NCBI GenBank assembly: GCA_031282205.1
Contig: JAITEE010000066.1
Span: 1-46,873, forward strand
Direction: 5' to 3'
Length of the DNA stretch: 46,873 nucleotides
DNA from: Candidatus Methanovirga aequatorialis
Lineage (GTDB): Archaea; Methanobacteriota; Methanobacteria; Methanobacteriales; Methanobacteriaceae
The first letter of the stretch is position 1. Every line of letters starts with the position of its first letter. The translations under genes and the position numbers were made by a program. This document shows positions 7,761-36,138 of the stretch, piece by piece. The notes beneath the pieces are model-generated. The model saw only the letters and a list, made by a program, of their open reading frames with translations. It did no database searches and had not been told where the DNA came from.

Positions 7761-8390
7761 ATGAGTAATATGAATCTTAACCTTATAACAAATATTCATA
7801 ATAATTATCGTAACAAAGCAGAATCAAGTGTTTACATTAAAAATGATGATGAAGCCTCAGAATTCAGCTTATTAAGACGATGGAATTTCAACAGCTGGGA
7901 GACCAGTACGGAGAAGTTTGATCTTGATGATGAGCAAGATTTGTTGCAGGTTATTCGTTATCCTGTCACAGACTGTTTCAACGGCATGAAAGACGGTATC
8001 CTGCGAGGGAAATGCGTAAGAGCATACGAAGAAACCCAAAACACGAACGCTCTACTCGTTCACACATGGCTATCACCATCACCTATACAAAACTTCGACT
8101 ACCCAATAATAGACAGCACAGGAATCCAAATCCTACTAAAAAATAATGAAAGCACAACAATAGCCACAGGAGAAACCACACGCCTCCCACAATTAGGAAC
8201 AAGCGAGAATGAGTACGGTACAGGATACGAACTACTAACATTCCCATTCATAGAAAACGAAGCACCATACATACTCACACTAACCAATGGAGACACCACA
8301 ATGACAAGAACAATAAACCATATACCACCAGAAACTGGCTGGACATTCGAAGAAAGATACACACCAGACACCGCAGGAGAAATAGCATGA
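7761..8390 (+). CDS. Unknown virion-associated protein, first gene of late block 1
   Basis: A 209-residue protein with no family I recognise. The first 100 residues are polar with KNDDEASEFSLLRRWNF and a DxDDEQDLLQV stretch; the rest is threonine- and asparagine-rich and looks all-beta, as in phage adhesion or baseplate proteins. Its stop overlaps the next start (ATGA type), so it is coupled to the spike-like gene and probably works with it. The second half is strongly A+C-rich on the coding strand, unlike the first half. Confidence 0.6.
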   Translation: MSNMNLNLITNIHNNYRNKAESSVYIKNDDEASEFSLLRRWNFNSWETSTEKFDLDDEQDLLQVIRYPVTDCFNGMKDGILRGKCVRAYEETQNTNALLVHTWLSPSPIQNFDYPIIDSTGIQILLKNNESTTIATGETTRLPQLGTSENEYGTGYELLTFPFIENEAPYILTLTNGDTTMTRTINHIPPETGWTFEERYTPDTAGEIA

Positions 8391-9628: not shown

Positions 9629-9675
9629 AAAAAAATACTCGTAAGAAGCGGCCATTATTTGGCCATTTCAGGAAC

Positions 9676-12063: not shown

Positions 12064-12065
12064 TT

Positions 12066-14042: not shown

Positions 14043-16844
14043 ATGGCTGAGAACAGAATAGAGATAGAATTCACAGGATCAGACGAAATATCAGAGATAA
14101 TAACAGGTATAACTGATCTGTTGCTGGATTTGCAATCCACTGTTGAAAATATTGATTTCAGTAGTTTGGAGTCGTTAGATGTTGACACGAGTAGTATTAC
14201 TAATGCTTCTGAGGATGTGACTACTTTAGGTGATGAAATAAGGAATATTCCTGATGATACAGTAGTAAATGTTGACACTAGTAGTATAGATAATGCAGCC
14301 GCTGATGTTGAAGAGCTTAATTCGGGAATAAACAATATTGAGACATTCATACAAATAAATATAGACGTTAGTGACTTGGAGAACGCTAAAAACGCAATGG
14401 AAGAAGTGAAATCAGCTGAGGAAGATATAACGAGCATGGACCTCTCTTCCCAATTCGGTGACTTAGCAGGGGCAATTGGGGACGCGGCTGTGGCTGGTGT
14501 TGGTCTTGGTTCGTCTTTAAGCGCGATACAACTCGGTATTGCCTCTGCTGACAGTTCACAAATATTTTACAATATTGCAGACGCAGCAGGATACTCTAAA
14601 GAATCAATGGATGGTATGTTAAGCTCTATGTCATCTATTAACACACAAGGAGTGAAGGTTAGGGGTGTTGCGACTGTATGGGCCGATTTCGGAAGAACGG
14701 TCGGTTTGAGCGAATCATCAATAGTCCAGATGGGTGATTCGATGTTAAAAGTTGCTGCAAACGCATCAAACTTAGGTAAAGATGGTGTGGGAGCTGTAAA
14801 TAGTCTTACAGGAGCAATGCTGCGATGGTCGAATGGAACACAACTACAAGGTAGAATGTTAGCAAATCTTGCTAAAACGACAGGATTAACAAAAGATCAA
14901 ATATCTGAATTACAAGCAGTTGCCTTAGAGTATGGCGAGGACAGCCAAGAGTTCGTTGATGCAACAAACAGAATGACGGGGAGTATGGATACAGATAAAC
15001 CCTTAACATTCGCACAAACATTCCAACAAATGAAAAACGAAATCGCTGGAGCTGCCCGTACAATACTTACGGACGTTAAACCAACCTTTGATTGGATAGT
15101 TAAAGAAGCAAAAGTTGTATATGGTGCACTAGAAGGGTTAACAGGAGGGAATACAGCTGAGCTGGTCGTTGGGGGAGTAATGGCGGGTGGATTAATAGTT
15201 GGATTAAAAAAATTAATAAGTTTTTTCACGAGCCTTAAAAACATATTCGGAAAAGTAAGCGATGCAGCAGGTAAAGTTAAAACCGATACAGTTAGTAAAT
15301 CAATTACAAGTTTGAAGGATTCTTTGAAAAATATGGGGAAGATATTCGTACAAGCCGCTGTTGCAATGGCTATAGCAGCAGCGTTAATAGCTGAAGGGAT
15401 GTTATTAGTAGCTGGGATTGGTGTGGTGTTCAAGGCTGTTGAACCACAATTTAATCAAGGAACAGAGGGTATAAAAGCAGTGGCTAAACTTTTAACTGAA
15501 ATAGCAATACCATTAGCGGCTCTTATACTAGCAGGAATAGTATTTAACAAATTAGGGTTAAGTTTCATTGGTGCGTTGTCTGGTGTGGCTGAGGTCATGA
15601 CCCTTATAAGTGAAACATTATTATTCTTCGTAGTTCCGATGCTAGCAATCGCAGCTAACGGCGCATTATATACAAGCATACAAGGACAAGTTCAAGATGG
15701 AATTGAAGGCATTAAAATAGTATCGCAACTATTAACAGACTTAGCTGTTCCTTTAGGTCTTATAATAGTTGCTGGTGCTTTGCTTGGTAGTATAGGTTTA
15801 GAAACATTACCAGAAATGATACTTGGAATCGCAGCAGTCTTCACACTAATATCTGAGACATTACTAGGATTCACACTCCCATTACTAGCACTAGCAGCGG
15901 TAGGTGCGGTCTACGAAGAGATAAAAGACCAGGTAAATGACGGAATAACAGCAGTACAATTATCAATCACCTCGATAGGCTTAACAATACAATTATTAAT
16001 ACTCACATTACAACAAATCATCGAAACAATCATTAACACGGCAGTAAGCGTAATAACAACCTTCATAAGTGGAATAACAACTGTTATACAGGGTATTTCG
16101 GATGGTGTTAACACAATCAGCAGCATGACAATAAACAGCACAGGATTATGGGGTGTGGCAGCTAGCATAACACTAGCTGGTATTGGGTATGCGGCTATTG
16201 GATTCGCACTTGCAGGGTTTGCTGCAGGATTAGTAGGTGCAGGATTAGGAGCTATGGTAGCAAAAGGAGTTAGCTGGATTCTCTCAGTCCTGGGCGGGAA
16301 TCCGCAGAATGTTATACAAGGTATACAGAATAATATTAATAATATGAAAAGTGTTGATAGTGGAAAGCTTGATGGGATAAAAGACAGTATTAACACTGCC
16401 AGGGACAAATTCAAGGATTTAACAAGGGCTCTTGATGATTTAAATAGTGCGATCAGTGATTGGAATAACAAGACGATTACAACACCTGAAAATAAGACTA
16501 TTAAAGCTCCAAGCGTGACTAGGGAAGCATTGCCTGCCGTTCCACGGTTTATTGAGCCAACAATCCCTACGAGCACACAGGATTATGTGAATGATTTAAT
16601 TAGTCCAATAGCTCCATTAACTGCTACGAGTAAGAATAAGAGTGTTGTGGGAGGTAATAATGTTGTTAAAAGAAGAATAGAAATAGACACAACCTCAGAC
16701 GTAAGATTAACTGCTGAGGATAATGTTCAAATTAATCAGGAGAATTTGGATGATTTAGAGAAGAAATTATTAGCTCAGCAAAAAGATTATTTGAATAGTA
16801 GGAAATTCAGGGATTTGCTTAATAAGCAACTAGCAACATTTTAG
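14043..16844 (+). CDS. Tape measure protein
   Basis: A 933-residue protein with the classic tape-measure layout: a coiled, polar N-terminal region with serine/aspartate/valine repeats (VDTSSI appears twice), a soluble helical domain, several long hydrophobic alanine/glycine/isoleucine segments (about residues 430-760) and a helical charged C-terminus. Such proteins set tail length and may help DNA cross the envelope. At about 1.5 angstroms per residue a tail near 140 nm would be expected (inference). Long open frames on the opposite strand are shadows of its biased codons. Confidence 0.88.
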   Translation: MAENRIEIEFTGSDEISEIITGITDLLLDLQSTVENIDFSSLESLDVDTSSITNASEDVTTLGDEIRNIPDDTVVNVDTSSIDNAAADVEELNSGINNIETFIQINIDVSDLENAKNAMEEVKSAEEDITSMDLSSQFGDLAGAIGDAAVAGVGLGSSLSAIQLGIASADSSQIFYNIADAAGYSKESMDGMLSSMSSINTQGVKVRGVATVWADFGRTVGLSESSIVQMGDSMLKVAANASNLGKDGVGAVNSLTGAMLRWSNGTQLQGRMLANLAKTTGLTKDQISELQAVALEYGEDSQEFVDATNRMTGSMDTDKPLTFAQTFQQMKNEIAGAARTILTDVKPTFDWIVKEAKVVYGALEGLTGGNTAELVVGGVMAGGLIVGLKKLISFFTSLKNIFGKVSDAAGKVKTDTVSKSITSLKDSLKNMGKIFVQAAVAMAIAAALIAEGMLLVAGIGVVFKAVEPQFNQGTEGIKAVAKLLTEIAIPLAALILAGIVFNKLGLSFIGALSGVAEVMTLISETLLFFVVPMLAIAANGALYTSIQGQVQDGIEGIKIVSQLLTDLAVPLGLIIVAGALLGSIGLETLPEMILGIAAVFTLISETLLGFTLPLLALAAVGAVYEEIKDQVNDGITAVQLSITSIGLTIQLLILTLQQIIETIINTAVSVITTFISGITTVIQGISDGVNTISSMTINSTGLWGVAASITLAGIGYAAIGFALAGFAAGLVGAGLGAMVAKGVSWILSVLGGNPQNVIQGIQNNINNMKSVDSGKLDGIKDSINTARDKFKDLTRALDDLNSAISDWNNKTITTPENKTIKAPSVTREALPAVPRFIEPTIPTSTQDYVNDLISPIAPLTATSKNKSVVGGNNVVKRRIEIDTTSDVRLTAEDNVQINQENLDDLEKKLLAQQKDYLNSRKFRDLLNKQLATF

Positions 16845-16851
16845 ATATTTT

Positions 16852-17187
16852 TTAATCATCTTTTTTTCTTAAACCAATATAACACTTATAAGTATTTATT
16901 CCCTTATTTATTAAAGGATACATTTTCTTCATTACTTTAACGTGCTTAAATTGTTTTATTAATCTAAGGAAACCAAAATCACATAATATTGTGAACAACA
17001 AGAGTATATCCAAGACCAGATGCATACTAAATTTTTTATGAAGTGTTAAAGCATATACAATATCTATTAAGAATATTATAGACAGAATCAACCCCAAATT
17101 AGGTAAAGTAATATAATTAAACAAACTACAAATATCTAAAATTGAAATTGTCCATATAAAACAACCATACGCAGTTTTAATCCCCAT
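16852..17187 (-). CDS. Small membrane protein of the reverse-strand cassette
   Basis: A 111-residue protein with three likely membrane helices (about residues 8-24, 28-48 and 58-76). Each arginine/lysine group follows a hydrophobic stretch (LRLIKQFKHVKVMKK), giving a strongly basic C-terminal half. The layout loosely recalls the voltage-sensor half of ion channels, but this is only a resemblance. It lies 19 bases after the PH/SHOCT-like gene and is read against the surrounding late genes. An exclusion or signalling role is possible; function is not known. Confidence 0.6.
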   Translation of the reverse strand: MGIKTAYGCFIWTISILDICSLFNYITLPNLGLILSIIFLIDIVYALTLHKKFSMHLVLDILLLFTILCDFGFLRLIKQFKHVKVMKKMYPLINKGINTYKCYIGLRKKDD

Positions 17188-17205
17188 TTTCAGAACACGA
17201 AAAGG

Positions 17206-17832
17206 TTAATTCAATAATTTGCGTTTTAATTCATCAAACTCTTCTTGAGTTAAAACGCCTCCATCTAATAGTTCTTTTGCTTCTTTTAGTTGTGTTACAA
17301 TATCTTTATTATTATTGTCTTTATTTTTTCTTCTTTCTTGAATAAAATTAAAAGCATGCTCTAATTCTTTTTGTTTTGCTAAAACAGCATCGTCACTTCC
17401 TTCCCATGAATGATCCCATTTTTCTTCTTTCCCATTACACATATAATATATGACAATCCCCACAGTAGCTTTTGTTTGACCTTTGTATGTCGCATGTCCT
17501 GGATGCCATCCAGTGAAAACGTCGTAAGTCCCCCATTTTGTTTTACTACCATTTAGGGTAAATTGGACATCAGTTATGTTATTTAGAGGAATAAACTTAT
17601 TTTTAGTAAAATCTTTTTCATCATAAACAAAAACGAGACCTTTTTCTCTAAGATGAACACCATTATCGAGCTTATATTTGAATTCACCATAATTTTCATT
17701 CATTTTTTGTTTAAATATTTTCTTTTGTTTTTCTTCTTCAGCTTTTCTGAGTTTTCTTCTTTCAAAATATCCTTGTCCAACCGTTTCTGATTCGGCTATT
17801 CCTGCGTCTTTTAAAAAGTTCATAAGTCCCAT
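17206..17832 (-). CDS. PH-like protein with C-terminal SHOCT domain
   Basis: A 208-residue protein. The C-terminus (IVTQLKEAKELLDGGVLTQE through KRKLL) is a clear SHOCT-type short helical domain. The middle (about residues 55-165: GLVFVYDE, FIPLNNITDVQF, TVGIVIYYM) reads like a bacterial pleckstrin-homology-like beta fold, and the N-terminus is a charged helix. SHOCT domains often occur at the ends of membrane-associated or stress proteins. It is read against the late operon, behind an RHH gene and before a membrane protein, like a moron cassette expressed in the lysogen. A ribosome binding site (AAAGGATG) precedes the start. Confidence 0.7.
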   Translation of the reverse strand: MGLMNFLKDAGIAESETVGQGYFERRKLRKAEEEKQKKIFKQKMNENYGEFKYKLDNGVHLREKGLVFVYDEKDFTKNKFIPLNNITDVQFTLNGSKTKWGTYDVFTGWHPGHATYKGQTKATVGIVIYYMCNGKEEKWDHSWEGSDDAVLAKQKELEHAFNFIQERRKNKDNNNKDIVTQLKEAKELLDGGVLTQEEFDELKRKLLN

Positions 17833-17883
17833 TTTTTTACATCCTTTTTTTGAAAATGATAAATTATAATAATTTTGTACATT

Positions 17884-18060
17884 TTATTCTCTCACTTTTC
17901 TCTTATTTTCTTCATACAAATAGAATATGTGCAATACGAATTCCTTCAAAAACATGTCTTCCTCAACAGCTTCTTTTTTCATCTGTTTTAAAGCTGATTT
18001 TGGTATATTAACGTTCAGCTTAACTTCTTGAGTCATAATTCTCAACAACCTTTTTGACAT
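17884..18060 (-). CDS. Ribbon-helix-helix regulator
   Basis: A 58-residue protein reading MSKRLLRIMTQEVKLNVNI from its first start, then PKSALKQMKKEAVEEDMF. A strand with alternating residues followed by two helices is the RHH (CopG/Arc) fold of small DNA-binding repressors. An internal ATG at 18036 gives a 50-residue form. It heads the minus-strand cassette and faces the promoter of late block 2 across about 150 bases, so it could control both. Confidence 0.65.
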   Translation of the reverse strand: MSKRLLRIMTQEVKLNVNIPKSALKQMKKEAVEEDMFLKEFVLHIFYLYEENKRKVRE

Positions 18061-18164
18061 TTTATAATATATTATTGTGTTTTATATTATATATATGTTT
18101 TCATACAAAAAATACAAAATATAATAATGTATTAAATGTACTTAAACTACCTACAAACACGAAA

Positions 18165-18182
18165 ACAGTAGATATATATACT
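18165..18182 (+). promoter_or_regulatory. TATA-like promoter of late block 2
   Basis: GATATATATACTATAAAA lies about 25-45 bases before the ATG at 18209, which has no clear ribosome binding site. This fits an archaeal promoter with a short or absent leader. It is in the spacer shared with the divergent RHH gene, so it may be under that protein's control. Confidence 0.4.
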
Positions 18183-18208
18183 ATAAAACACAAAAAACAA
18201 CACATAAT

Positions 18209-18649
18209 ATGATCAACTCAAAAAAAAGCCGTTTTCAAACCATCGTAGAAAAATTAGAACTTATTTTGCGAATGGAATATCCAGACATCCCCTTATTCAG
18301 CATAGGAAAATCCTCAGAGTATGTTCGTTCAAATCAACCTGTTGGTTTCACAATAATGAAAAAAGAGGATGTTTTAATTAGAACAACGAATATTTGCCAG
18401 TCCAAAGAGGCTAAATTTGATATTGGGGTGTTGTTGAAGTTGGATAGTGAGCATGCGACTTATGAATTATCTGAGATAGCTGAGAACCTTATTGATAAAT
18501 TCAATACTGATGATGGGTTCAAAACTCTTGATAACACGGTTATTGAATGCGGATTAGATGATAGGTTGAATACGAGTTATAATTTCGTTAACAGTCAAGG
18601 AAAACGCCTTAACACACTAACAATCCCAATGCAAGTACGATACGCATGA
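18209..18649 (+). CDS. Putative tail terminator or neck protein
   Basis: A 146-residue alpha/beta protein: N-terminal helix (FQTIVEKLELILRMEYPDIP), then beta strands and a helix (YELSEIAENLIDKFNT), ending in LNTLTIPMQVRYA. The secondary-structure order resembles minor tail terminator proteins, and the stop overlaps the next start. The family is not certain from sequence alone. It opens late block 2. Confidence 0.5.
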   Translation: MINSKKSRFQTIVEKLELILRMEYPDIPLFSIGKSSEYVRSNQPVGFTIMKKEDVLIRTTNICQSKEAKFDIGVLLKLDSEHATYELSEIAENLIDKFNTDDGFKTLDNTVIECGLDDRLNTSYNFVNSQGKRLNTLTIPMQVRYA

Positions 18650-19134
18650 ATACTAATGTTAAATTCCGTGAACAATCCGTAATCCGATGGGGTGACCGCC
18701 AAACCGTGAAACGTCATCTCGGATATGGTAAAGACTTCCTATCTGATGATAAACTCATAACAAGCTGTCTCCTGTACGCGAATAACGATATAGAATCAGA
18801 ATTAATAAATGAAGGTTTTTGTGAAGGTGACATAGAACAATTACCAAATTGTAATTTGCAATTAACCCAAATAGCCGAGTTATTAGCTGCGAGCTACGCG
18901 TACTTAGATAGTGAAACTTATAATGCTCAGATTGAAGATATGAAAACTGATAAGTTCAGGAAAATAGCAACAGACAAATTACAGAACCTACTCGGGAACC
19001 TGCGTGGGAAATGTGAGGACATAAGGAATTATGATGATTATGTAATTACTGAATACAGACACAGAAGTCAACATAACGAATTATGTAATGATACATGTTA
19101 TAATTGTGTAGATTGTAGTTTCAAACAATTTTAG
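18646..19134 (+). CDS. Putative head-tail connector protein
   Basis: A 162-residue protein. The central helical region (LSDDKLITSCLLYANNDIES, then NLQLTQIAELLAASYAYLDS) follows the pattern of gp6/Mu gp36-like head completion proteins that form the ring below the portal. The C-terminus is odd: it carries CNDTCYNCVDC, four closely spaced cysteines that could bind a metal or crosslink. It overlaps the preceding gene by four bases. Confidence 0.55.
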   Translation: MNTNVKFREQSVIRWGDRQTVKRHLGYGKDFLSDDKLITSCLLYANNDIESELINEGFCEGDIEQLPNCNLQLTQIAELLAASYAYLDSETYNAQIEDMKTDKFRKIATDKLQNLLGNLRGKCEDIRNYDDYVITEYRHRSQHNELCNDTCYNCVDCSFKQF

Positions 19135-19166
19135 GTATTCAAAACAATTTAAAAAGAAGGAAAAAC

Positions 19167-20723
19167 ATGGAAAATGAATGCGAAGACATAAACGAATTCC
19201 CTACGATAGAGGAGATGCAACGGAACCGTTATTTGTATTATTGCTGGTTAAAATACGTGTATGAGAATGGAGGAGGTGGTGGTCAGCCAACATTTATTTT
19301 TAGTGTTGATGATACTTTAACAGTTACTCAAACAGATTATGAGGCAGACATAAGTCTTGCTGAGGGGAAAGTTGAAGGTAAACATTTAAAAGATGCTACA
19401 ATCACCTCTTCTAAGATAGCTAATAATCAGATAACTGGTGGTCAGTTTAATCCTAAAATAGCTGAAGCAACAGTAACCAATCGTGAATTAGCAGGTAATT
19501 CAGTCACAAATAGTCAAATAAGTAATAATGCAGTCACTAGAAACAAATTAGACGGTGATGTGGTTGATGGAGATAGCAGTAATTTATTAGAATTCAGAGA
19601 TGATGGCTTATACGTCCCCAATATTGCATCATCAAATTCTATTAGTGTATTGAAAGGGCAGAATACTATTACTCCTTCTGCTAAAATAGCTGCTGCATCA
19701 GACAATAATTTAGAAATATTAAGTGATGGTTTGTACAGTAAATTGGTTGATAATCGTTTATGGCATTATATCGGTGATTTAAATGATTTCACTGACTTGG
19801 AAAAGTTAAGCACTCCCCAAATCAACGGAACACTCATAAAAGTGTTTAATCCTGATGCAACCACTCAAATGTATGAGTGGAATGCTACCGATGAAGCATG
19901 GGAAGAATCTAGTGAAACAACAGGTGAAATAGCATTATTACAAGGAGTAGATTACCTACCACCCGCCGATGGTTACGGTAACGAGCAAATGTTCTGGATC
20001 CTCCACATACTCGAATCCAGTCCGACTCATGGTGGTGAGGGATGGTACTGGTTCACAGACCATTGGAATCAGTTAGACGCAACAATCAACGTTGTTAATA
20101 GTGTTAATATTGGTGATATGAATCCAGTAACTAGTAATGCCGTTGCACAAGTCATTGAAAATATTAATCCTGAATCTGACGTTTATTATAATGATGGGGA
20201 TGAAATAAAACCTTTACCAATCGAATTGAATAATCATAAACAATACGTCCCCCTAATGAACGAAACAGTTAATTATAGTTTTAATCACCACATCAAAAAC
20301 GATACAGTATTCACTAAACTAAACATCCAATTACCCTCCGATTTCAAAGATTATACTGTAGATATATACTCTTCAGAATCAGGATCATTTGCTGTTAAAT
20401 TTGATGAGGAACAGAATATTATTAGTTTAACCAGCCAGGACCCAGCAATCAACGATTTCATCTTTTGGGATGGGGAATGGACTGGCCCTGCAGATATTCT
20501 TGGTATAGGAGTATGGACTGGTTCACAATTAATCGCTCATCCTGAGTATGCATATTTTATATTATACGAGGAGGAACCGTTCCCTGTTGCTCCTGATCCT
20601 GATTACATATCATATGTTTCTGTGGCTGATGCGGGTCTTATTTCTAAATCTAATGTCGATACTGATTGTTTCACTTTCAATAGTGATGGGAAATTGACTT
20701 TAGGATATACCTGGGATGATTAA
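19167..20723 (+). CDS. Tail fibre protein with repeats
   Basis: A 518-residue protein. After a short head (residues 1-35) and a glycine run (GGGGG) it carries repeats typical of phage fibre shafts, about residues 70-125 (ITSSKIANNQITGG, VTNRELAGNSVTNSQI, AVTRNKL). A mid region with DDGLYV / SDGLYS motifs follows, and then a beta-rich C-terminal region. It is the first of five adjacent genes that look like adhesion proteins, inserted between connector and neck genes. A good ribosome binding site (AGAAGGAAA) precedes it. Confidence 0.75.
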   Translation: MENECEDINEFPTIEEMQRNRYLYYCWLKYVYENGGGGGQPTFIFSVDDTLTVTQTDYEADISLAEGKVEGKHLKDATITSSKIANNQITGGQFNPKIAEATVTNRELAGNSVTNSQISNNAVTRNKLDGDVVDGDSSNLLEFRDDGLYVPNIASSNSISVLKGQNTITPSAKIAAASDNNLEILSDGLYSKLVDNRLWHYIGDLNDFTDLEKLSTPQINGTLIKVFNPDATTQMYEWNATDEAWEESSETTGEIALLQGVDYLPPADGYGNEQMFWILHILESSPTHGGEGWYWFTDHWNQLDATINVVNSVNIGDMNPVTSNAVAQVIENINPESDVYYNDGDEIKPLPIELNNHKQYVPLMNETVNYSFNHHIKNDTVFTKLNIQLPSDFKDYTVDIYSSESGSFAVKFDEEQNIISLTSQDPAINDFIFWDGEWTGPADILGIGVWTGSQLIAHPEYAYFILYEEEPFPVAPDPDYISYVSVADAGLISKSNVDTDCFTFNSDGKLTLGYTWDD

Positions 20724-20725
20724 AA

Positions 20726-21193
20726 ATGGAAATTAAGCAAAATATAAGTTTTCAAGGTGATGCTAATAGTTCACACAGTATTTTCTCAATTGATCAAAAC
20801 GATGAAATTGCGAAATTTTTTGGTATTCGTGATGGGTTCTGCTGTCTTGGAGATGATTTTGATAATTTAACACGATTCCCAGTGGTTAAAAACCCAGATT
20901 TTAGTGTTCCTTTGTTTTTTGATGGGGTGAAGTGTGGTCAGTTCTCAGTTTTTAATAATACCGTATATATTTATCTTAATAAATTTATTGATAAGTTTGC
21001 AAAGGGTGAATATGTTCTCTCTGAGGAAAACATAAATTCTGCCTATTTCCCTAAAAATTTAACAATTTTAGTGATGGATGTTGCAACAGGTGTTTTAAGT
21101 TTAGATGAAAACAATTATTTGAAAATGAAAATCAATTTATCTACAAGTGTTTATATAGATTATTTGACTATAAGGTGTTCCTATGAACTATAA
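20726..21193 (+). CDS. Fibre-associated protein 1, function unknown
   Basis: A 155-residue beta-type protein beginning MEIKQNISFQGDANSSHSIF and ending in IDYLTIRCSYEL. It starts two bases after the fibre gene and overlaps the next gene by 11 bases. It has no membrane segment and no recognised domain. Position and composition suggest a small fibre-tip or receptor-binding subunit. Confidence 0.5.
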   Translation: MEIKQNISFQGDANSSHSIFSIDQNDEIAKFFGIRDGFCCLGDDFDNLTRFPVVKNPDFSVPLFFDGVKCGQFSVFNNTVYIYLNKFIDKFAKGEYVLSEENINSAYFPKNLTILVMDVATGVLSLDENNYLKMKINLSTSVYIDYLTIRCSYEL

Positions 21194-21740
21194 CAAAGTT
21201 AAAATCACTAAAGACTATAATGAAGCAAATATAGGATTAGAATATAAAAATAATAGAAATATTTCGGGTTTGAGGATTAATCATGATTCCAATACGGGCA
21301 CATACTCTAATCAATTCAAAACACTTGATGATGATGAATATGAAAATTTTATGAATGAAGATATAAATAACGGTATTACGGCTATAATCAACCGTGACGA
21401 TGTGAATGCAGGCCTTTTAACGTTAACGGAACAAAAATTAATTATTTTAGCAGGTGGATTAGTCAATTATTCAGGTATCCTACAATATAATGGAAGTATG
21501 AGTGGCTTAAATGAGTATGCTCCATCATTCACGTATTTAAATATGTATCCTCCAGCATATCCTACTATTAGTAATATTAGCACGGTTCCTGGTTCTTCTT
21601 TTGATAGGGTTAAAAATTCTCTCCTTATTCTTAATAAACTTGGACGAATGAGATTATCCTGGTACTTTGCCTCTGATTTTACTATTAGTCCTAATTATCC
21701 GTTCTTTTTCAATTTCACGTATAACAGGGGGAGTCTTTAG
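21183..21740 (+). CDS. Fibre-associated protein 2, function unknown
   Basis: A 185-residue protein opening NYNKVKITKDYNEANIGLEY, similar in style to the next gene's KGKFKITKDIEGN. The C-terminal part (RLSWYFASDFTISPNYPFFF, ending NFTYNRGSL) is beta-rich, like the ends of its neighbours. The shared KITKD opening suggests paralogy with fibre-associated protein 3. It is overlapped by the preceding gene and followed one base later by the next. Confidence 0.5.
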   Translation: MNYNKVKITKDYNEANIGLEYKNNRNISGLRINHDSNTGTYSNQFKTLDDDEYENFMNEDINNGITAIINRDDVNAGLLTLTEQKLIILAGGLVNYSGILQYNGSMSGLNEYAPSFTYLNMYPPAYPTISNISTVPGSSFDRVKNSLLILNKLGRMRLSWYFASDFTISPNYPFFFNFTYNRGSL

Positions 21741-21741
21741 C

Positions 21742-22272
21742 ATGAAAAAAGGCAAATTTAAAATCACTAAGGATATTGAAGGCAATCCATCAGGTTTTTA
21801 CATTAATGACCGTGATTATGAGGAAAAGAATGGAGCATGCTTAGGAATTTCTGATAATGGTGAATTACAATATAAACATAAAAATATGGATGGATTAGAA
21901 CCAATTTTTACAGGTTTCCCCAACCCAATTAATGATTTTGTTAAATGGGGAGGAGACGACTCATTTTTTCACGTTGACATTATCGGCATACATTACTCGA
22001 ATAATTTTAAAGAATTGTTTTTCAATATAAAAACAAAATTTAGTATGAGCGGGACTAGTTGGTACGTATTCAATTTAAATGAGTTAGGATTCGACCCAAC
22101 GGAATGGATTAATCCTAAGGGATTACCTACTCAAATGTGTGCGGATTATTTTACAAATACTATTGCTTATTTTTACACAGGAGGGCTGCTATATGTGAAA
22201 AATTATAATAACAGAGTAACTATCCCTTCAGGAACGACAATGCATTGTAATACGAGATGGTACCATGAATAA
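21742..22272 (+). CDS. Fibre-associated protein 3, function unknown
   Basis: A 176-residue protein. I start at the ATG at 21742, which has a GGGGGAG ribosome binding site, rather than at an earlier open codon inside the previous gene. The N-terminus KFKITKDIEGNPSGFYINDR resembles the preceding protein; the middle is aromatic and beta-like; it ends TMHCNTRWYHE. It overlaps the next start by eight bases. Probable fibre-tip component by context. Confidence 0.5.
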   Translation: MKKGKFKITKDIEGNPSGFYINDRDYEEKNGACLGISDNGELQYKHKNMDGLEPIFTGFPNPINDFVKWGGDDSFFHVDIIGIHYSNNFKELFFNIKTKFSMSGTSWYVFNLNELGFDPTEWINPKGLPTQMCADYFTNTIAYFYTGGLLYVKNYNNRVTIPSGTTMHCNTRWYHE

Positions 22273-22675
22273 TTTAAATTTAATCGACACATTCGACTAT
22301 GATCTATATCCCTGGGGCAGCTCATTAGGGAATGTTAAAATACAGGCAAACCTATATGATCTAAGTGAAATTAACGATGATTTACTCCTAAAAGAATTAA
22401 AAATAACACTTAATGTCCTTACTGGTATGGATCATGGAATGTGGGGTGGAAACCTTCTTAATATTGATAATAGATTTAAACCTCAAGATTATAACAATCC
22501 TTCGATCATCTTACCATCCTGGACTATTGCTTCTAATGTTCCTTCTCCTTCGTACTCAAACAGTAACAGTTTATTGATTTACACGAATAGTAACAAGGAG
22601 TTATACATAATTTTAACTTGTTATAATTCTGTAATTGCATCTGGACGTTATAATTTTTACTTCAAATACATATGA
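22265..22675 (+). CDS. Fibre-associated protein 4, function unknown
   Basis: A 136-residue beta-type protein ending in a short aromatic strand (GRYNFYFKYI), comparable in position to the endings of the three upstream proteins. No domain is recognised. It closes the fibre cassette; about 115 bases with a strong hairpin separate it from the neck gene. Confidence 0.45.
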   Translation: MNNLNLIDTFDYDLYPWGSSLGNVKIQANLYDLSEINDDLLLKELKITLNVLTGMDHGMWGGNLLNIDNRFKPQDYNNPSIILPSWTIASNVPSPSYSNSNSLLIYTNSNKELYIILTCYNSVIASGRYNFYFKYI

Positions 22676-22712
22676 AAAATATAAAATACAGGTAAAATGG
22701 TAGTTTCAAAAT

Positions 22713-22787
22713 ATGTTTAACCTAGATTACTTCACAATCGAAGAAATAATAGCAGTTACCCGGAATTTCCGGGCAACTGAATGGTGA
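22713..22787 (+). CDS. Possible 24-residue micro-ORF
   Basis: An ATG at 22713 opens a 24-codon frame (MFNLDYFTIEEII...) ending four bases before the neck gene. The 13-bp hairpin lies inside it. It could be a leader peptide or chance; no ribosome binding site is strong. Confidence 0.25.
   Translation: MFNLDYFTIEEIIAVTRNFRATEW
22753..22779 (+). promoter_or_regulatory. Strong hairpin just upstream of neck gene
   Basis: CAGTTACCCGGAA pairs with TTCCGGGCAACTG around a single T, 12 of 13 positions matching. It is unusually GC-rich for this genome and ends about five bases before the ribosome binding site GGTGAT of the gene at 22792. It may be an RNA processing site, an attenuator or a protein binding site dividing the fibre cassette from the head genes. 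Confidence 0.5.
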
Positions 22788-22791
22788 TTAA

Positions 22792-23172
22792 ATGATGCAA
22801 GTTAATATTCATATAGATGAAACAATAAGTAATCTAGCAAGAATCAGTGCAGATCTGAACAGTCGTATGAATTTACTCGCTCAAATAGGGCGTGAAATAC
22901 AGAATGTATTGTTTGAGGAGGCTCCTGTGGTCACTGGTAATTTCGCTGCTAATATTATTGCTGAGATTGAATCTGATGATTTATTAATAGTCACAGAACC
23001 ATCAGAAGCAGAAGGTGGCTTACCTTATGCGATGAGGGTGTTAGTGGGCACGCGTAAAGACGGAAGCCCATTTTCAGAGAAAGGTTTTGAACTATTCACA
23101 CGGAACATGCCTTATGCGGAAGAAACAGCCATTAACGAAACCCAAAATTGGATAAGTGAGATATTAGCATGA
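22792..23172 (+). CDS. HK97 gp10-like neck protein
   Basis: A 126-residue protein matching the HK97 gp10-like/tail-completion pattern: an N-terminal helical region, then EEAPVVTGNFAANI (the conserved aPvdTG.Lr.si motif), a strand region, and PYAMRVLVGTRKDGSPF with PYAEETA near the end. Such proteins join head and tail. It overlaps the portal gene start by four bases. Confidence 0.65.
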   Translation: MMQVNIHIDETISNLARISADLNSRMNLLAQIGREIQNVLFEEAPVVTGNFAANIIAEIESDDLLIVTEPSEAEGGLPYAMRVLVGTRKDGSPFSEKGFELFTRNMPYAEETAINETQNWISEILA

Positions 23173-24218
23173 ACAAGGATCTATTTATTAATCAAATTAA
23201 CAAAAATCAAACATTACTCTCACAATTGAATCAAAACCCTAATTGGAGTAAGAATTATAAGTTATTAGAGGATTTAATTAATTATGATGCTTATTTCAAC
23301 TCACTAATCACTCTCTGCAATTTCATCTCCAAACAACCAATAACGTTCAAGTGTGATGATAAACGGTTTGAAAACATTGTTAATGAATCAATACAGAATA
23401 TTAACTTTCAAGACTTCGTCAATCTGTTTTTAAACTATTTATCTTATGGTTATGTTGTCTTTGAAGTTATTTATAAGAAATCAGGTGCTGATGATATTGT
23501 TACTGTCTCGGAGTTAAGTTTTATTGATTATAATTTCAGCATACTCTTCCAGGAAGATGATGATGGTTCGCTTTATTCTATTAGGGTTGGGAACACGGAA
23601 TTAAATTATTTAAAATTTCAAAATGCTTCATTTAATTCAAAGAAGAACAAATATTATGGTAATAGTATTTTAACGAAGGATATTGCTAATACTATAATGT
23701 ATGCTAGGGATGCTTTGCTTAATCTTAATATTGCTAATTATCGTTTTGGTAACCCGTTATTCGTGACGAAAACTGATAGTTTTAAGAATAAGAATAGGTT
23801 AAAGGAAGCTTTCAAAAACGTGAAGGATGGTTTAACAAGCATATTCATATCAACTGATGAAGAGGTCACAACCGTACAATCAAACCATAATGAGGACAAT
23901 TTTATTAAATCGATAGAATTGTATGATAAGAAGATAGCTAAAAGCCTATTTATAGGTGATATGCTTTATGGGGGGTCGAATTCTAAGGGTTCGTATAATC
24001 AAGGAGAAATACAATTAACTATGTTATATGCTAACCTGGATTCTATTATCAAGGATATTGAGGAGTTTTGGATAGAGATCATCAAGAAATTATATTTGAT
24101 CAATATTTCGCCTGATTTAGAAAAATTCCATGGACTACATGCTGATTTTAGTATTGTTAAGTTTTCTGACACAGACTCTTTAAATATACAGTCAATTGAG
24201 AAAGATTTGGTGGTTTGA
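23169..24218 (+). CDS. Portal protein
   Basis: The 349-residue dodecameric portal through which DNA enters the head, of the Mu gp29/DUF935-like type. Supporting features: the helix-rich N-terminal third, a wing region (VFEVIYKKS, LSFIDYNFSILFQ), GNSILTKDIANTIMYARDAL, and the C-terminal GGSNSKGSYNQGEIQ motif before long helices. It is shorter than the average portal. Its place directly before the MuF-like gene is canonical. Confidence 0.82.
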   Translation: MNKDLFINQINKNQTLLSQLNQNPNWSKNYKLLEDLINYDAYFNSLITLCNFISKQPITFKCDDKRFENIVNESIQNINFQDFVNLFLNYLSYGYVVFEVIYKKSGADDIVTVSELSFIDYNFSILFQEDDDGSLYSIRVGNTELNYLKFQNASFNSKKNKYYGNSILTKDIANTIMYARDALLNLNIANYRFGNPLFVTKTDSFKNKNRLKEAFKNVKDGLTSIFISTDEEVTTVQSNHNEDNFIKSIELYDKKIAKSLFIGDMLYGGSNSKGSYNQGEIQLTMLYANLDSIIKDIEEFWIEIIKKLYLINISPDLEKFHGLHADFSIVKFSDTDSLNIQSIEKDLVV

Positions 24219-24221
24219 AAA

Positions 24222-25382
24222 ATGGATTTGGATGAGTTTTATAATTACTCTATTGACTCGGCGATTGAGGATGATAACGGGCAGGTTAACTCTAAAATGC
24301 TATATTCTATTTTAGCAGCTTTAGTTTTGAAAAATTATCCTCGTGATAGTTTTGATGATGCTTACCGGCTTAGTGTGACTGAGGATTTGTTTAAAAAGAA
24401 TTATTCTCAATTACAAAAAATGATCGATGATATAATCTCAATTAAACTAGGGATAGATTTCACAGATTATAATCCGGATGGGGATGATGACAGATATTTG
24501 ATTATAAAATCAGTGGTTGCAGCAAGCCTAACGAATGATTTGATTGATATAATCGGGATTGACAGATTAACTCAGGAAATCGTGGATAAAGCAACGAACA
24601 ACTTCATGCAAGAGCAAGGGATAAGAAAGGACTGGAGGAACAGTAAATTGAATCAGGAGTTCGTAGAAGGGTATCTTGAGAATAGATCTGATATGGATGT
24701 TGCTGTTCTTAATGGTTTCACTCACAAATTGTGGCGATGGACTGGAGAAGGAGCTACAACGAGACATGAATCAAATGACGGTTTGATAGTTCCTATAGAT
24801 GAAGAATTTGAGATAATTAACGATGCAACAGGAGAAACAAGCAATTTAATGTTTCCACGTGATGATTCTGGTTCAAATCTGAACGGTGATGAGTGGAATT
24901 GTTATTGTGAGGTTGAATATTTGAATACTGTTGAATTAGCAAGGACTATTAAGCCTATTAGTGATATAAACGGTACAATACTCATAGATAATCGTCCTAT
25001 TTTCGCTGATGATGGTGAGGCACTAACTGACCTGCAATTGATGAATACTTATACTTTACTCAAAGAGAATTTACCTATTCCAATAAATCTCACACATGCG
25101 TCCTCAGCTGTTGGTGTGGATGATAAAGAATTAGTGTCTGACTTATTGGATGATGTTGGGATGATTACAGATGTGGGATTGTTTATTGATGATGAATCGG
25201 GTTACATGTTTATAAAAACACTTGATTCTGAAATAACAAACGATACTATCACAGATTATATAAATGAGGGCAGGATTAATGGTATTAGTCTTGAAGGATT
25301 GCGATTAAAGGATAGTATATACATAAATGCATTTAGTCTTGTTAAGGAACCAGCATGCCCTAAATGCACAATAAATCATTAG
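24222..25382 (+). CDS. MuF-like minor head protein fused to prohead-protease-like domain
   Basis: A 386-residue, apparently two-part protein. Residues about 90-232 carry the SPP1 gp7/Mu gpF pattern: WRWTGEGATTRHESNDG, DEEF, FPRDD and a closing NCYCE. Residues about 285-380 look like a phage prohead protease of the XkdF kind: candidate catalytic His292 (LTHASSAVG), Ser356 (GISLEG) and the closing FSLVKEPACP, which matches the EvSlV..PAnP ending of that family. Most viruses carry these as separate genes. It is followed by the scaffold gene, the natural substrate. The protease assignment rests on motifs only. Confidence 0.7.
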   Translation: MDLDEFYNYSIDSAIEDDNGQVNSKMLYSILAALVLKNYPRDSFDDAYRLSVTEDLFKKNYSQLQKMIDDIISIKLGIDFTDYNPDGDDDRYLIIKSVVAASLTNDLIDIIGIDRLTQEIVDKATNNFMQEQGIRKDWRNSKLNQEFVEGYLENRSDMDVAVLNGFTHKLWRWTGEGATTRHESNDGLIVPIDEEFEIINDATGETSNLMFPRDDSGSNLNGDEWNCYCEVEYLNTVELARTIKPISDINGTILIDNRPIFADDGEALTDLQLMNTYTLLKENLPIPINLTHASSAVGVDDKELVSDLLDDVGMITDVGLFIDDESGYMFIKTLDSEITNDTITDYINEGRINGISLEGLRLKDSIYINAFSLVKEPACPKCTINH

Positions 25383-25395
25383 GAGGAATCATATA

Positions 25396-25953
25396 ATGAG
25401 AGAAAAACAAATAGACATTGCTAAAATGAAAAACGATATCTTGGCAGAAACCTACGTCGATTCGTTAATCGAGGAAGGTAAAATATCTGAAGATATGAAA
25501 GAAGAACAACTATTGCTAGCAAGAACCGATTTAAATAGTTATAAAACATTAACAGCACAATTTAGCACAACAATAGCAGAAGATAGTAGTGATGCAGACG
25601 AAGATATTCTTAAAAGAGCTATGAAAGAAGAAAACAGTGAATTAAGTCCTGTTGAATTAGCTAAAAAGGAAGCGCGGGCTGAGATCGAAGCTGAAATGTT
25701 CGTGCAAAAACAAGTTGATGATGGTGTTATATTGCCATCTGAAGCCAGGTCACATGTTTTATTTGCAAAATCACATTTAAAAGCCTATAAAACATTATTA
25801 AATCAAAGAAATGAATTAAATCTTGGTAAGAAAGTCGTTAACAGCTTTAAAAAAGATGAGGGGAATGAGTTGAGTTTCGTTAATCTTTGCAAACATTTGA
25901 ATAACGAGTTTGAGAAACAATCAAAACCGTACAAAACCTTAGGAGGTAGTTAA
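25396..25953 (+). CDS. Putative scaffold protein with internal tandem repeat
   Basis: A 185-residue charged helical protein between the protease fusion and the capsid genes. It contains a duplicated unit: residues about 17-55 (AETYVDSLIEEGKIS...LNSYKTLTAQ) and 99-137 (AEMFVQKQVDDGVIL...LKAYKTLLNQ). The unit resembles the C-terminal region of Mu gpI-type scaffolds. It probably guides capsid assembly and is then degraded. A ribosome binding site (AGGAGG) precedes it. Confidence 0.65.
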   Translation: MREKQIDIAKMKNDILAETYVDSLIEEGKISEDMKEEQLLLARTDLNSYKTLTAQFSTTIAEDSSDADEDILKRAMKEENSELSPVELAKKEARAEIEAEMFVQKQVDDGVILPSEARSHVLFAKSHLKAYKTLLNQRNELNLGKKVVNSFKKDEGNELSFVNLCKHLNNEFEKQSKPYKTLGGS

Positions 25954-25955
25954 GA

Positions 25956-26516
25956 ATGGGATTATTCGATTTAGGCGATAAAGGAAAAGTATTAGTCTCA
26001 TTGGATGAGGGACCTATCACCCTAGTGAAATTCCCCGCCGTGCCATTACCAGCTGAGACTTATCGTGCAAGACCAGGTGATATTGTGTATTTTGCTCCTG
26101 TTCAAACGGGGAAAGCAACACAATACATCTCAGCAACAGCACAAATGATAAAAACCTATGCTAACGGCACATACGTACCCGCAGGAATAGTGCTAACCGA
26201 ACCAAAATATAATAACAGTTTAGGGATGAGGGAAGCAGATATTGCATTATTCGGGATCATAGAAGAAGCATTGTTCGAAGGAACCCAACCTGCCTTAGCA
26301 ACAAGACAATTTGCAGCTCAATTTGTCGCAGCAAAAGCAAACCCTACAGTGGAATTACCTAGATTCAGTGTAACATCTACAGTAGGCTCTAACCCTATCA
26401 TTTATCAAGATGGAACTGACGTATCAACCGCCCGAGTATTCATAACTAGTCTACCGAACATTGTGAATAGCAGCGGAGTTCAAGAAACAAACGAAGAAGA
26501 TGAGGAGGAATTATAA
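25956..26516 (+). CDS. Putative head decoration protein
   Basis: A 186-residue protein directly before the major capsid gene. Residues 35-115 (YRARPGDIVYFAP, VPAGIVLTEPKYNN, EADIALFGIIEEAL) read like the beta-tulip decoration proteins that staple the capsid. It ends in an acidic tail (NEEDEEEL). The stop overlaps the capsid start region by one base, implying matched expression. Confidence 0.6.
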   Translation: MGLFDLGDKGKVLVSLDEGPITLVKFPAVPLPAETYRARPGDIVYFAPVQTGKATQYISATAQMIKTYANGTYVPAGIVLTEPKYNNSLGMREADIALFGIIEEALFEGTQPALATRQFAAQFVAAKANPTVELPRFSVTSTVGSNPIIYQDGTDVSTARVFITSLPNIVNSSGVQETNEEDEEEL

Positions 26517-27460
26517 TGGCTGAATACATAAGCACAAAAGCACCAACAGATTTCATACTCGAAAACGACGTACTACCTTTATTTGTGGAAGAGAGAGTGA
26601 GAACAAGCTTACAATTACTACAAATCGTAGGTAGAAGACAGGCAAAAGATGGGCAGTTCGATGTTGTGGTTGAGGAACCAACATACAAAGAATTTAAAGC
26701 AGCGAATAAAAAACAGAGAGCTGGTGAAGCTTCTGATTTCAAAAGGTTGAAAGGATTAAAGCCTGTTTATGATAGTGATAAAACAAAGCTTAATAAGTAT
26801 TATGTTGAATATACGAAGCTTAAAAGAGAAAACGACACGATGGGTGATATTCCGCGTGAAATTGCTGACACTGCACTTATGTTAGCTGAAGATTTGAACG
26901 ATGAAATATTGGATAAGACAATAGCTTATGCTCAAGGTTCAGCTATTCCTGTAGGGCAACTTGATTGGGTTAATAATCCAATAGAAGCTAACGTGTTGAT
27001 TAAAAACTATTTACGTGATCAGGATGGTCACAAATACAACCTTAATCAAATGTTCATCGTTGAAGAGCGTTATGAAGAATTCATAAAAGCATTATATCAA
27101 CCCGATTATCACATAGCCTTCAGTAACGTTTATGGGACTGAATCAGCTTTAATCGTTGGTGAAGATGGAGTTTTGATGAAAATTAACAAATTAGACCTTA
27201 AATACGCCGATATGGGTGCTGATTACTTCGCAATTGATGATACAGCTGAATATGGTGCAATTTACAGTAACTTGGAGAACTGGGGATTCAGTTATAATAC
27301 ATCAGCCCTCACAGAACAAGGAGATGTGCCAATAGCTTATGCTGAGGAAGAGACGCAGAATTTTAATGTGACTGACATGAGAACAAGCGTCCTATCCGAT
27401 GCTGGTTTCGGTATTCGTGCTCCTAGAGCTGTTGTTAAAGGAGATTTAGTTGCTCACTAA
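26516..27460 (+). CDS. Major capsid protein
   Basis: A 314-residue protein with the expected place and size of an HK97-fold capsid subunit. It has no obvious cleavable N-terminal delta domain. Visible are a basic loop (FKAANKKQRAGEASDFKRLK), the spine-helix-like EIADTALMLAEDLNDEILDKTI and YNLNQMFIVEERYEEFIKAL, with A-domain strands and GIRAPRAVVKGDL at the C-terminus, typical of capsid ends. A good ribosome binding site (GAGGAGG) precedes the ATG. No covalent crosslink is implied. Confidence 0.75.
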   Translation: MAEYISTKAPTDFILENDVLPLFVEERVRTSLQLLQIVGRRQAKDGQFDVVVEEPTYKEFKAANKKQRAGEASDFKRLKGLKPVYDSDKTKLNKYYVEYTKLKRENDTMGDIPREIADTALMLAEDLNDEILDKTIAYAQGSAIPVGQLDWVNNPIEANVLIKNYLRDQDGHKYNLNQMFIVEERYEEFIKALYQPDYHIAFSNVYGTESALIVGEDGVLMKINKLDLKYADMGADYFAIDDTAEYGAIYSNLENWGFSYNTSALTEQGDVPIAYAEEETQNFNVTDMRTSVLSDAGFGIRAPRAVVKGDLVAH

Positions 27461-29434: not shown

Positions 29435-30409
29435 ATGAGTGAAATAGAAGAATTCAAAAAAGCAGTTAAAGAATTCATTGATAATTATGAAAATGAAACC
29501 CTTACCCCTGAGGGTGAAGAACATCCAGATAATTGGCCTTACATAAGAGATATAAGTGATTCAACTAATACATATATTCATCGTGAAGCATTAGTTGACA
29601 TGACCAAAAGATTCGACGCTTATAATGAGGATCATGGTAACTCACCATTGGTCATTAGCAGACGTGATCCTTTACGTGATGGTTTATTGGATTGGCGTAT
29701 TGGTGATGATAGTTCTTGGAGTTTAACTGGTGATTATTTAAGATTGGATAAATATTTGGAGATCTGGCAACGATTAGATGTTTTCGGGGGAGTGTTAAAT
29801 CCTTACGTGCAAGATGATGTTAATCAAATACCTGAATGGATACCTATCATTATAGAAGGATCATCAACACCCTCACCTGAACCTGTACCTCCTGAAAGTA
29901 CTGATTGTAATGGTGAGGTGTGGCAGTGGGGTGGAACTAGTACTATTTATGAACCTCATCACCAGGTAACTGATTGGAATTGTAGTATACATGCATTTTG
30001 CGAGGTTGCCTTTAAATGTAATGACCTGGATTTATCTGAGGGTAATGTGACTGATGATGCATTTAATAAGGGTTGGATTAGTTATTCTGGGGCTGGTCAT
30101 GATATTTTCTATAAGTTAAGAGATAAGTACACACCTAACTTAGATATTACTGAGCGGAATTTATCAGATTTAACTTGGTGTGGTTTAGCTAAACTGATTG
30201 CATCTAAGGATTCTGCCGTGATTCTCCATGGTATGTATAAAAATACGTGGGGTCATTATTTCCGTGAGGGTGCGGTTGATTTCGACAATGGTACTGTTTA
30301 TGATTTAGGCAGTTTGAGTGATGGGTTGATGTGGCGTGGTATGTATGAAGTAGAGTCATGGTGTGCTCAAATCAGCCAACCATCTTGTATAATATTCAAA
30401 AGAAAATAA
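29435..30409 (+). CDS. Pseudomurein-targeting lysin (cysteine peptidase)
   Basis: A 324-residue lysin candidate. The N-terminal half has two repeats like pseudomurein-binding repeats: about residues 46-75 (YIHREALVDMTKRFDAYNED) and 98-140 (DYLRLDKYLEIWQRLDVF). A proline/serine linker (143-154) leads to a papain-like domain with Cys183 (DWNCSIHAF), His274 (WGHYF) and Asp290 (YDLGS) in the expected order for C71/C39-type enzymes that cut the peptide bridges of pseudomurein. It precedes the holin gene. The specific bond is inferred from family knowledge. Confidence 0.8.
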   Translation: MSEIEEFKKAVKEFIDNYENETLTPEGEEHPDNWPYIRDISDSTNTYIHREALVDMTKRFDAYNEDHGNSPLVISRRDPLRDGLLDWRIGDDSSWSLTGDYLRLDKYLEIWQRLDVFGGVLNPYVQDDVNQIPEWIPIIIEGSSTPSPEPVPPESTDCNGEVWQWGGTSTIYEPHHQVTDWNCSIHAFCEVAFKCNDLDLSEGNVTDDAFNKGWISYSGAGHDIFYKLRDKYTPNLDITERNLSDLTWCGLAKLIASKDSAVILHGMYKNTWGHYFREGAVDFDNGTVYDLGSLSDGLMWRGMYEVESWCAQISQPSCIIFKRK

Positions 30410-34820: not shown

Positions 34821-35882
34821 TTATTCTTCGTTTAATAATTCATTTACCTTAATATCAATCTCTTTTTTTAACACTAACAAATCTTTAAGCTGCATATTTG
34901 AAATAGTCCCTAAATAATCATTATTTATAATTTTAATAGGGCTTACTTGCAACAAAGACATGTACTTCTCAATATACTTATTCCGAATGTGGGTAGGGTC
35001 CGTTTTAAAATACGCTTCAATCACAGGGCTTCTTTTCCTACCATGAATGGCGTTAACAAACTCAACATCCTTAATAATACAGGCATTCATCTTTCTAAGA
35101 GAATGAGATCGGAAAAACAATTGCTTGCCAACAACAGGAAAATTCAGAACCCTATTTACTCTCTTATAAAATGAATTCATCGTATTGAAACTCATAGAGA
35201 ACAAACAATCATCCAAATTTAAATCATGTCTCATTAACAAATGAGAGCAGATTCTCCTACTTGCTTCATCACTACAAAGAATATAATAAGGATAATTAGT
35301 CTTCCTTCTAACAAAACAGATTAATGGAACGAGCAAATCCCCCCTTAATAATTCTTTTAATGATAAAGATATTGCTTCTTTATTGTCCTCACAAACAATA
35401 TCAAACCCAGAGAAAAAATCACGTATTTTCAAATCAAAACACTCCATACGTGCAGTACCACTACTCGCCTGAAACAAGACAAGTGAGAGAAATTCAGGAG
35501 ACTCATTCTTCTCAACATACTCTACAACCTGCTTAACATGACTCATCGTTGGAATATCCTTAAAAAAGATATGATTGTCTTCTCTCAAGGATATTTTTGG
35601 GAGATATGGGATAAGCACGTCAAAATGACGTAGTATAGAGAGAAATGATTCCCAATACTTCTTTCTACTTGAAACAGCTAGGTTTTCATCCTTGTATAAT
35701 TTTGATCTGTAATTAATCAGAATCTTCCTAAGCTCAGAAATTGGCATTTTAATTACATGTTCTAATTCTAAACCTATTGTTTTAACGAACCATTTACACG
35801 AATTAGTGTATAGTCGTATTGTGGCATCAGATATGTTTCTTTCATCTTGAAATATCTTCAAATATTCTTTATTTGTTTTCAT
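34821..35882 (-). CDS. int: Tyrosine recombinase (integrase)
   Basis: A 353-residue site-specific recombinase. N-terminal SAM-like DNA-binding region (SDATIRLYTNSCKWFVK), then the catalytic domain: first arginine in SSGTARMECFDLKIRDF (about 165-180), HSLRK box (about 277), and the nucleophile tyrosine in AYFKTDPTHIRNKYIEKYM near residue 308, an archaeal arrangement. I choose the second ATG (35882) because GGAGG lies eight bases upstream. It inserts and excises the virus. It is inside the replication operon rather than at the element end. Confidence 0.85.
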   Translation of the reverse strand: MKTNKEYLKIFQDERNISDATIRLYTNSCKWFVKTIGLELEHVIKMPISELRKILINYRSKLYKDENLAVSSRKKYWESFLSILRHFDVLIPYLPKISLREDNHIFFKDIPTMSHVKQVVEYVEKNESPEFLSLVLFQASSGTARMECFDLKIRDFFSGFDIVCEDNKEAISLSLKELLRGDLLVPLICFVRRKTNYPYYILCSDEASRRICSHLLMRHDLNLDDCLFSMSFNTMNSFYKRVNRVLNFPVVGKQLFFRSHSLRKMNACIIKDVEFVNAIHGRKRSPVIEAYFKTDPTHIRNKYIEKYMSLLQVSPIKIINNDYLGTISNMQLKDLLVLKKEIDIKVNELLNEE

Positions 35883-36138
35883 TAACATCGCCTCCGTTAT
35901 TTTTTGGACATTCGTGGTAAAAACCTTCCATTAATCTCGTACCATCTTCATAGAGATAAAATTTCTTACCATTCATCTCCCCAGTCTCAATAACTTTCTT
36001 TTCAACATGTAAATGCTTGTCTGTGAAAAGCAGTCTTCTTACTATTTCATTCATGCTCAAACCAGTTTCAAAACTCTTATTTTTAATAACTGTCTTCTCT
36101 TCATAGTTTAAAGCAACTATTAGTTGTTCTCTCCTCAT
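35869..36138 (-). CDS. RHH regulator preceding the integrase
   Basis: An 89-residue protein. VALNYEEKTVIKNKSFETGL followed by SMNEIVRRLLF is a CopG-type ribbon-helix-helix pattern; the rest is a short beta-like C-terminal region (GKKFYLYEDGTRL). It overlaps the integrase start and probably controls the integrase/early promoter. It is one of three RHH proteins in the element. Confidence 0.6.
   Translation of the reverse strand: MRREQLIVALNYEEKTVIKNKSFETGLSMNEIVRRLLFTDKHLHVEKKVIETGEMNGKKFYLYEDGTRLMEGFYHECPKNNGGDVNENK

Follow-up and report, generated by a model that had tools for sequence, protein, structure and literature searches.

The head genes of an integrated provirus

We analysed a stretch of 46,873 nucleotides of Candidatus Methanovirga aequatorialis (hereafter the window). 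Host genes were found on both sides, encoding TFIIB at 2.6 kb and an SRP54-type GTPase and eIF-6 at 40.6 and 42.9 kb, respectively, and a terminase gene was located at 6.4 kb, which indicates a provirus integrated from about 5 to 36–38 kb. A search for an att site detected no shared repeat of at least 14 bases between 4.3–7.0 kb and 33.0–38.3 kb. The host genome encodes methyl-coenzyme M reductase alpha, as a methanogen does, and the named relatives are Methanobrevibacter and Methanorudis, which makes the host a methanogen and very probably one of the Methanobacteriaceae. The terminase gene (6399–7658) is on the strand opposite to the late genes. Long tape-measure-sized and tail-like genes (7761–23172) precede the portal and head genes, which is an unusual late-gene order. 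After the head genes, 29435–30409 encodes a 324-aa protein that by eye resembles a pseudomurein (cell-wall) peptidase, and an ORF at 34821–35888 on the minus strand is by eye integrase-like; neither matched Pfam. The head-gene region contains the following genes and features.

23169–24218, plus strand: portal protein (Portal_Mu; PF06074, E 1.9e-21; phrog_113, E 6.7e-23), directly upstream of the fusion gene
24222–25382, plus strand: MuF–protease fusion gene, 386 aa, ATG start and TAG stop, with MuF homology and protease homology
24714–24920, plus strand: MuF domain signature, residues 165–233 (K.W, TRH, FP.D, NC.C), from phrog_2468 and an alignment of stand-alone MuF proteins
24921–24923, plus strand: TTG codon of residue 234, at the domain joint, a candidate internal start with GAGGT upstream
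24969–25379, plus strand: predicted prohead-protease domain, about residues 250–386, from sequence homology and the fold of a relative
25095–25097, plus strand: codon of His292, candidate catalytic residue, invariant in all aligned relatives
25287–25289, plus strand: codon of Ser356, candidate nucleophile, invariant in all aligned relatives
25356–25367, plus strand: CxxC (Cys379 and Cys382) where the protease domain ends, invariant among relatives of the methanogen-virus type and lacking in HHTV-1
25381–25395, plus strand: Shine-Dalgarno sequence AGGAGGA, overlapping the TAG stop of the fusion gene, just 5' of the scaffold ATG
25396–25953, plus strand: separate scaffold protein, 185 aa, in which the C-terminal scaffold module of relatives occurs twice in tandem, from BLAST and shuffles
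25956–26516, plus strand: head decoration-like protein by position only, in the same place as a 175-aa gene of the related virus L007; no family match in Pfam or PHROGs
26516–27460, plus strand: probable major capsid protein, 314 aa, from position and size only

A MuF domain and a protease-type domain in one frame

The fusion gene is a single open frame of 386 codons without an internal stop, and the other two frames are full of stops at the joint between the domains. The motif TGEGATTRHES starts at residue 174, NCYCE at 226, and FSLVKEPACP at 371; these are the motifs named in a preliminary description of this DNA, which had read from the letters a MuF/gp7-type signature followed by a C-terminal region in the same frame.

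MuF proteins of other phages are minor head components near or associated with the portal. The PHROGs profile search matched phrog_2468 (head morphogenesis) to residues 165–233 (E 2.4e-8), with the motif itself spanning residues 174–230, and a stand-alone MuF protein of a related genome (L002) was 46% identical to residues 163–235 (E 4e-13). The K.W, TRH, FP.D, and NC.C elements are common to the fusion protein and the stand-alone MuF proteins of related genomes, and the gene lies directly 3' of the portal gene, which stops 3 bases before it. The curated family PF04233 was absent from the Pfam match list of the fusion protein. The L002 protein terminates three residues beyond NCQCDVEY, and it is there that the chain of the fusion protein continues (NCYCEVEYL-NTVEL...) into the second domain. 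Thus, with the MuF domain first and the protease-type domain second in one uninterrupted frame, the sequence confirms the fusion of a MuF minor head domain with a predicted prohead-protease-type domain.

Initiation at the candidate TTG codon 234 could give a free protease. Since a comparable upstream site was present at 10 of the 155 internal NTG codons of the neighbouring genes, this candidate carries little weight as an internal start.

Sequence relatives and candidate catalytic residues of the protease half

Residues ~250–386 showed homology to the first 150 residues of P0002, a protein of a Methanobacteriaceae virus (L007, 784–1830), with 29% identity in BLASTP (E 2e-8), and hhalign gave a probability of 97% (E 9e-11). 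The local alignment scores against three relatives were 112, 99, and 87, whereas the best of 1000 shuffles scored 62, 58, and 58. The tail of P0002 passed the Pfam cut-off for the Mu-like prophage I protein (Mu-like_Pro, PF10123; E 7.6e-7), as did that of the homologue in L029, which identifies both as Mu gpI-like protease-scaffold proteins. The domain also aligned with proteins of L029, L012, L038, L043, and L025 and, more weakly, with gp19 of Haloarcula hispanica tailed virus 1 (HHTV-1), to which P0002 is related by the sequence of its protease domain (E 4e-4).

His292 and Ser356, which had been proposed as candidates at these very positions, were invariant in 8/8 aligned sequences, HHTV-1 gp19 included; the eight are those of the window, P0002/L007, L029, L012, L038, L043, L025, and HHTV-1. 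The overall identity among these relatives is low (15–30%). Homology to a protease-scaffold protein and the conserved candidate catalytic His and Ser together support an assignment of the domain to the prohead serine proteases. D364 is a candidate for the third catalytic residue; most relatives, though not every one, have an acidic residue in its column. Between Ser356 and the PAC/GAC motif the window has 21 residues, whereas each of the other seven sequences has 32–39, which leaves the loop behind the serine 11–18 residues shorter. In the model of the L007 domain the shortening falls in the hairpin after the serine (strands 105–116 and 124–137). Since this hairpin is cut back, the predicted protease activity is not assured.

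The C-terminal region had been labelled XkdF-type, and this label was not supported. The XkdF family (Peptidase_S78_2, PF14550) reached 12.8 bits, with the cut-off at 24, and did so at residues 98–157, which is the wrong part of the protein, and gave no profile match to the C-terminal region; what is common to XkdF and the domain is the general logic of prohead proteases. The nearest relatives are instead the Mu-gpI-like protease-scaffold domains of archaeal viruses and HHTV-1 gp19. Neither Pfam nor PHROGs contained a protease profile that matched the C-terminal part alone, and sequence searches of the PDB returned chance matches only.

Fold of the protease half

The protease domain of L007, the best relative, was modelled with a pLDDT of 82; HHTV-1 was left out of the rows for structure prediction. 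This model found 57 matches at E ≤ 0.001 in BFVD, many of which are named prohead protease or head maturation protease, and HHTV-1 gp19 was the top match (E 1e-9). Among solved structures, three chains of T4 gp21 ranked first, weakly (E 0.08–0.13 and TM about 0.4; best E 0.08). T4 gp21 and herpesvirus assemblin use a Ser-His mechanism according to the literature. These matches support an assemblin-like fold for the relative L007. The domain of the window was itself modelled poorly (pLDDT 55), and a fold search with this low-confidence model found nothing; its fold therefore rests on homology. A protease-fold match, obtained through L007, and conservation of H292 and S356 were the two points on which the preliminary description had staked its proposal, and both were found. 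Its central claim of a minor head protein fused to a prohead-protease-like domain is supported by the single frame and by the BLASTP and hhalign matches.

A separate and duplicated scaffold gene

The ORF at 25396–25953 matched the scaffold tail of P0002 (BLAST E 1e-5) and, weakly, phrog_328 (head maturation protease; E 0.0014), at positions 186–298 of 339, which is the scaffold end of that profile. The score of the internal duplication was reached in 0/1000 shuffles, and the scores against the tails of the relatives in 0–8 of 500 shuffles. Single-protein searches of IMG/VR with the scaffold or with the fusion protein as the query found no relative. The Shine-Dalgarno sequence of the scaffold gene overlaps the stop of the fusion gene, so that protease and scaffold are genuinely encoded by two genes here.

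The same domains are cut differently in related viruses

In the Methanobacteriaceae virus proteins of L007, L012, L029, and L025, a protease homologous to that of the window, with H, S, and CxxC invariant and a longer loop after the serine, is joined to a scaffold module of the Mu gpI type, and the neighbourhood is the same as in the window. The order in L012 and L029 is portal, MuF, protease-scaffold, and protease and scaffold are joined in L007 too. Thus, the relatives join the protease to the scaffold and keep MuF separate where it was seen, whereas the window shows the reverse. These different joins indicate that gene boundaries have moved within a conserved domain order. In HHTV-1, MuF (gp15) is likewise encoded upstream of, and apart from, the protease-like gp19, which lacks the CxxC. 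HHTV-1 gp19 (L013, 3782–5242), annotated as hypothetical, is probably a prohead protease, judging from its alignment and its match to the L007 model.

L025, which belongs to the window's own genus, has another N-terminal domain before the protease and no MuF gene between the portal and protease genes, and L043 has a similar N-terminal extension. Together with MuF in the window, these extensions suggest that the N-terminus of the protease is a place of attachment for other domains. In L043 (89–1417), protease (89–985) and scaffold (1061–1417) lie in the same frame and are split by an in-frame stop, which may be a further instance of the two being separated, or an error in the sequence. The proteins of L042 (JARKQC010000120.1), binned as Bacteroidota, are nearly those of the viral contig L012, a virus of methanogen type; L042 is probably misbinned.

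Known MuF fusions

The preliminary description had stated that most tailed viruses keep MuF and protease separate, which is fair as a general statement, but fusions have been published for phages of actinobacteria. A MuF–protease fusion was described in Microbacterium cluster EG phages (PMC7302621) and is annotated in mycobacteriophages of cluster B1 (PMC9584339; L047). Since these precedents exist, the fusion is not a new kind of system; it is a kind already known from actinobacteriophages, of which the window is a new example from an archaeal virus. In gp9 of the B1 phage Bluephacebaby, MuF is at 260–339 and a head-maturation-protease PHROG matches at 592–818; as in the window, MuF comes first, the protease-like region later, and the gene just after the portal gene. 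This likeness is one of architecture. The Bluephacebaby fusion has 857 aa and a bacterial host, whereas that of the window has 386 aa and an archaeal host. The scaffold was not identified in B1 phages (PMC9584339), whereas the window has a recognisable separate scaffold gene. Two Methanobacteriales virus genes (L003, 937–2376, minus strand; L045, 5731–7227, BK063677.1, vir080) encode MuF fused to an ADP-ribosyltransferase domain. PHROG 595 (head maturation protease) was dropped as a precedent because the vir080 gene is such a MuF–ADP-ribosyltransferase fusion and a separate protease gene lies elsewhere in vir080, so that the phrog_595 label looks misleading. To our knowledge, neither T4 gp21 nor herpesvirus assemblin is fused to a MuF-like protein.

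Origin and possible working of the fusion

We read the gene as encoding, in one polypeptide, both the MuF minor head protein and the capsid-maturation protease of a methanogen tailed provirus, and as having arisen by boundary shifts; we put the probability of this reading at roughly 0.78. The likeliest course starts from the standard order of portal, MuF, protease, scaffold, and capsid and involves two shifts. In one, the MuF stop would have been lost and MuF joined to the protease; in the other, the gain of a stop and a ribosome-binding site would have separated the scaffold tail, now a stand-alone, internally duplicated gene.

The main competitor, which we regard as unlikely, is that the C-terminal domain has retained the prohead-protease fold without its activity, as a structural remnant on MuF in a capsid that matures without cleavage. 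The shortened stretch between Ser356 and PAC, shorter than in every relative, and the lack of a fixed third catalytic residue beyond the candidate D364 are consistent with this, as is the probable capsid protein, in which no obvious long N-terminal propeptide was seen by eye; moreover, Microbacterium cluster EA phages have no maturation protease gene (PMC7302621). H292 and S356 have nevertheless been retained despite the low identity among the relatives, and no other protease candidate was recognised between the portal and capsid genes in Pfam or PHROGs, both of which argue against this reading.

It is less probable still that MuF and protease are separate genes which only seem joined because the MuF stop was lost through a mistake in sequencing or assembly. 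We saw the fusion in only this one genome, a draft of 215 contigs, with no second archaeal MuF–protease fusion found among 554 genomes, IMG/VR, and the phage collection, and the MuF and protease genes of L029 are about 6 bases apart; an assembly error that deleted the stop thus retains a small residual probability. Against such an error, the frame is clean with stops in both other frames, a stand-alone protease would have no start except TTG234, which is itself in the MuF frame, and the split of the scaffold indicates that the locus has been re-cut anyway; the fusion also has precedents. That the C-terminal part is a cargo or effector borne by MuF and delivered to the host seems hardly credible. 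MuF proteins often carry effector domains (PMC5512222), and the ADP-ribosyltransferase fusions of related Methanobacteriales viruses are of that sort, but the domain of the window is homologous to scaffold-joined proteases, and a scaffold gene directly follows it.

In phages such as Mu, protease and scaffold share a chain, which would carry the protease into the prohead. In the window the protease lacks this link to the scaffold and has MuF as its sole fusion partner, so that MuF as its carrier is the simplest proposal: MuF would take over from the scaffold tail in bringing the protease into the prohead, and the fusion would place it next to the portal, as had been suggested from the letters. 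On completion of the shell, the serine protease (H292 and S356) may cut the scaffold and perhaps also the capsid protein and its own linker at residues 235–250. More speculatively, and with the odds rather against it, MuF may have replaced the scaffold tail, with the result that a small number of protease copies begin at the portal vertex and are not distributed throughout the scaffold core; an optional start at TTG234 would then determine how much enzyme is free and how much is anchored.

The window thus adds an archaeal virus to the actinobacteriophages from which this fusion has been described so far, and it comes with relatives that cut the same domains elsewhere. A probable protease assignment is also gained for HHTV-1 gp19. 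This set of relatives allows one to ask by what route a maturation protease unlinked from the scaffold gets into the prohead.
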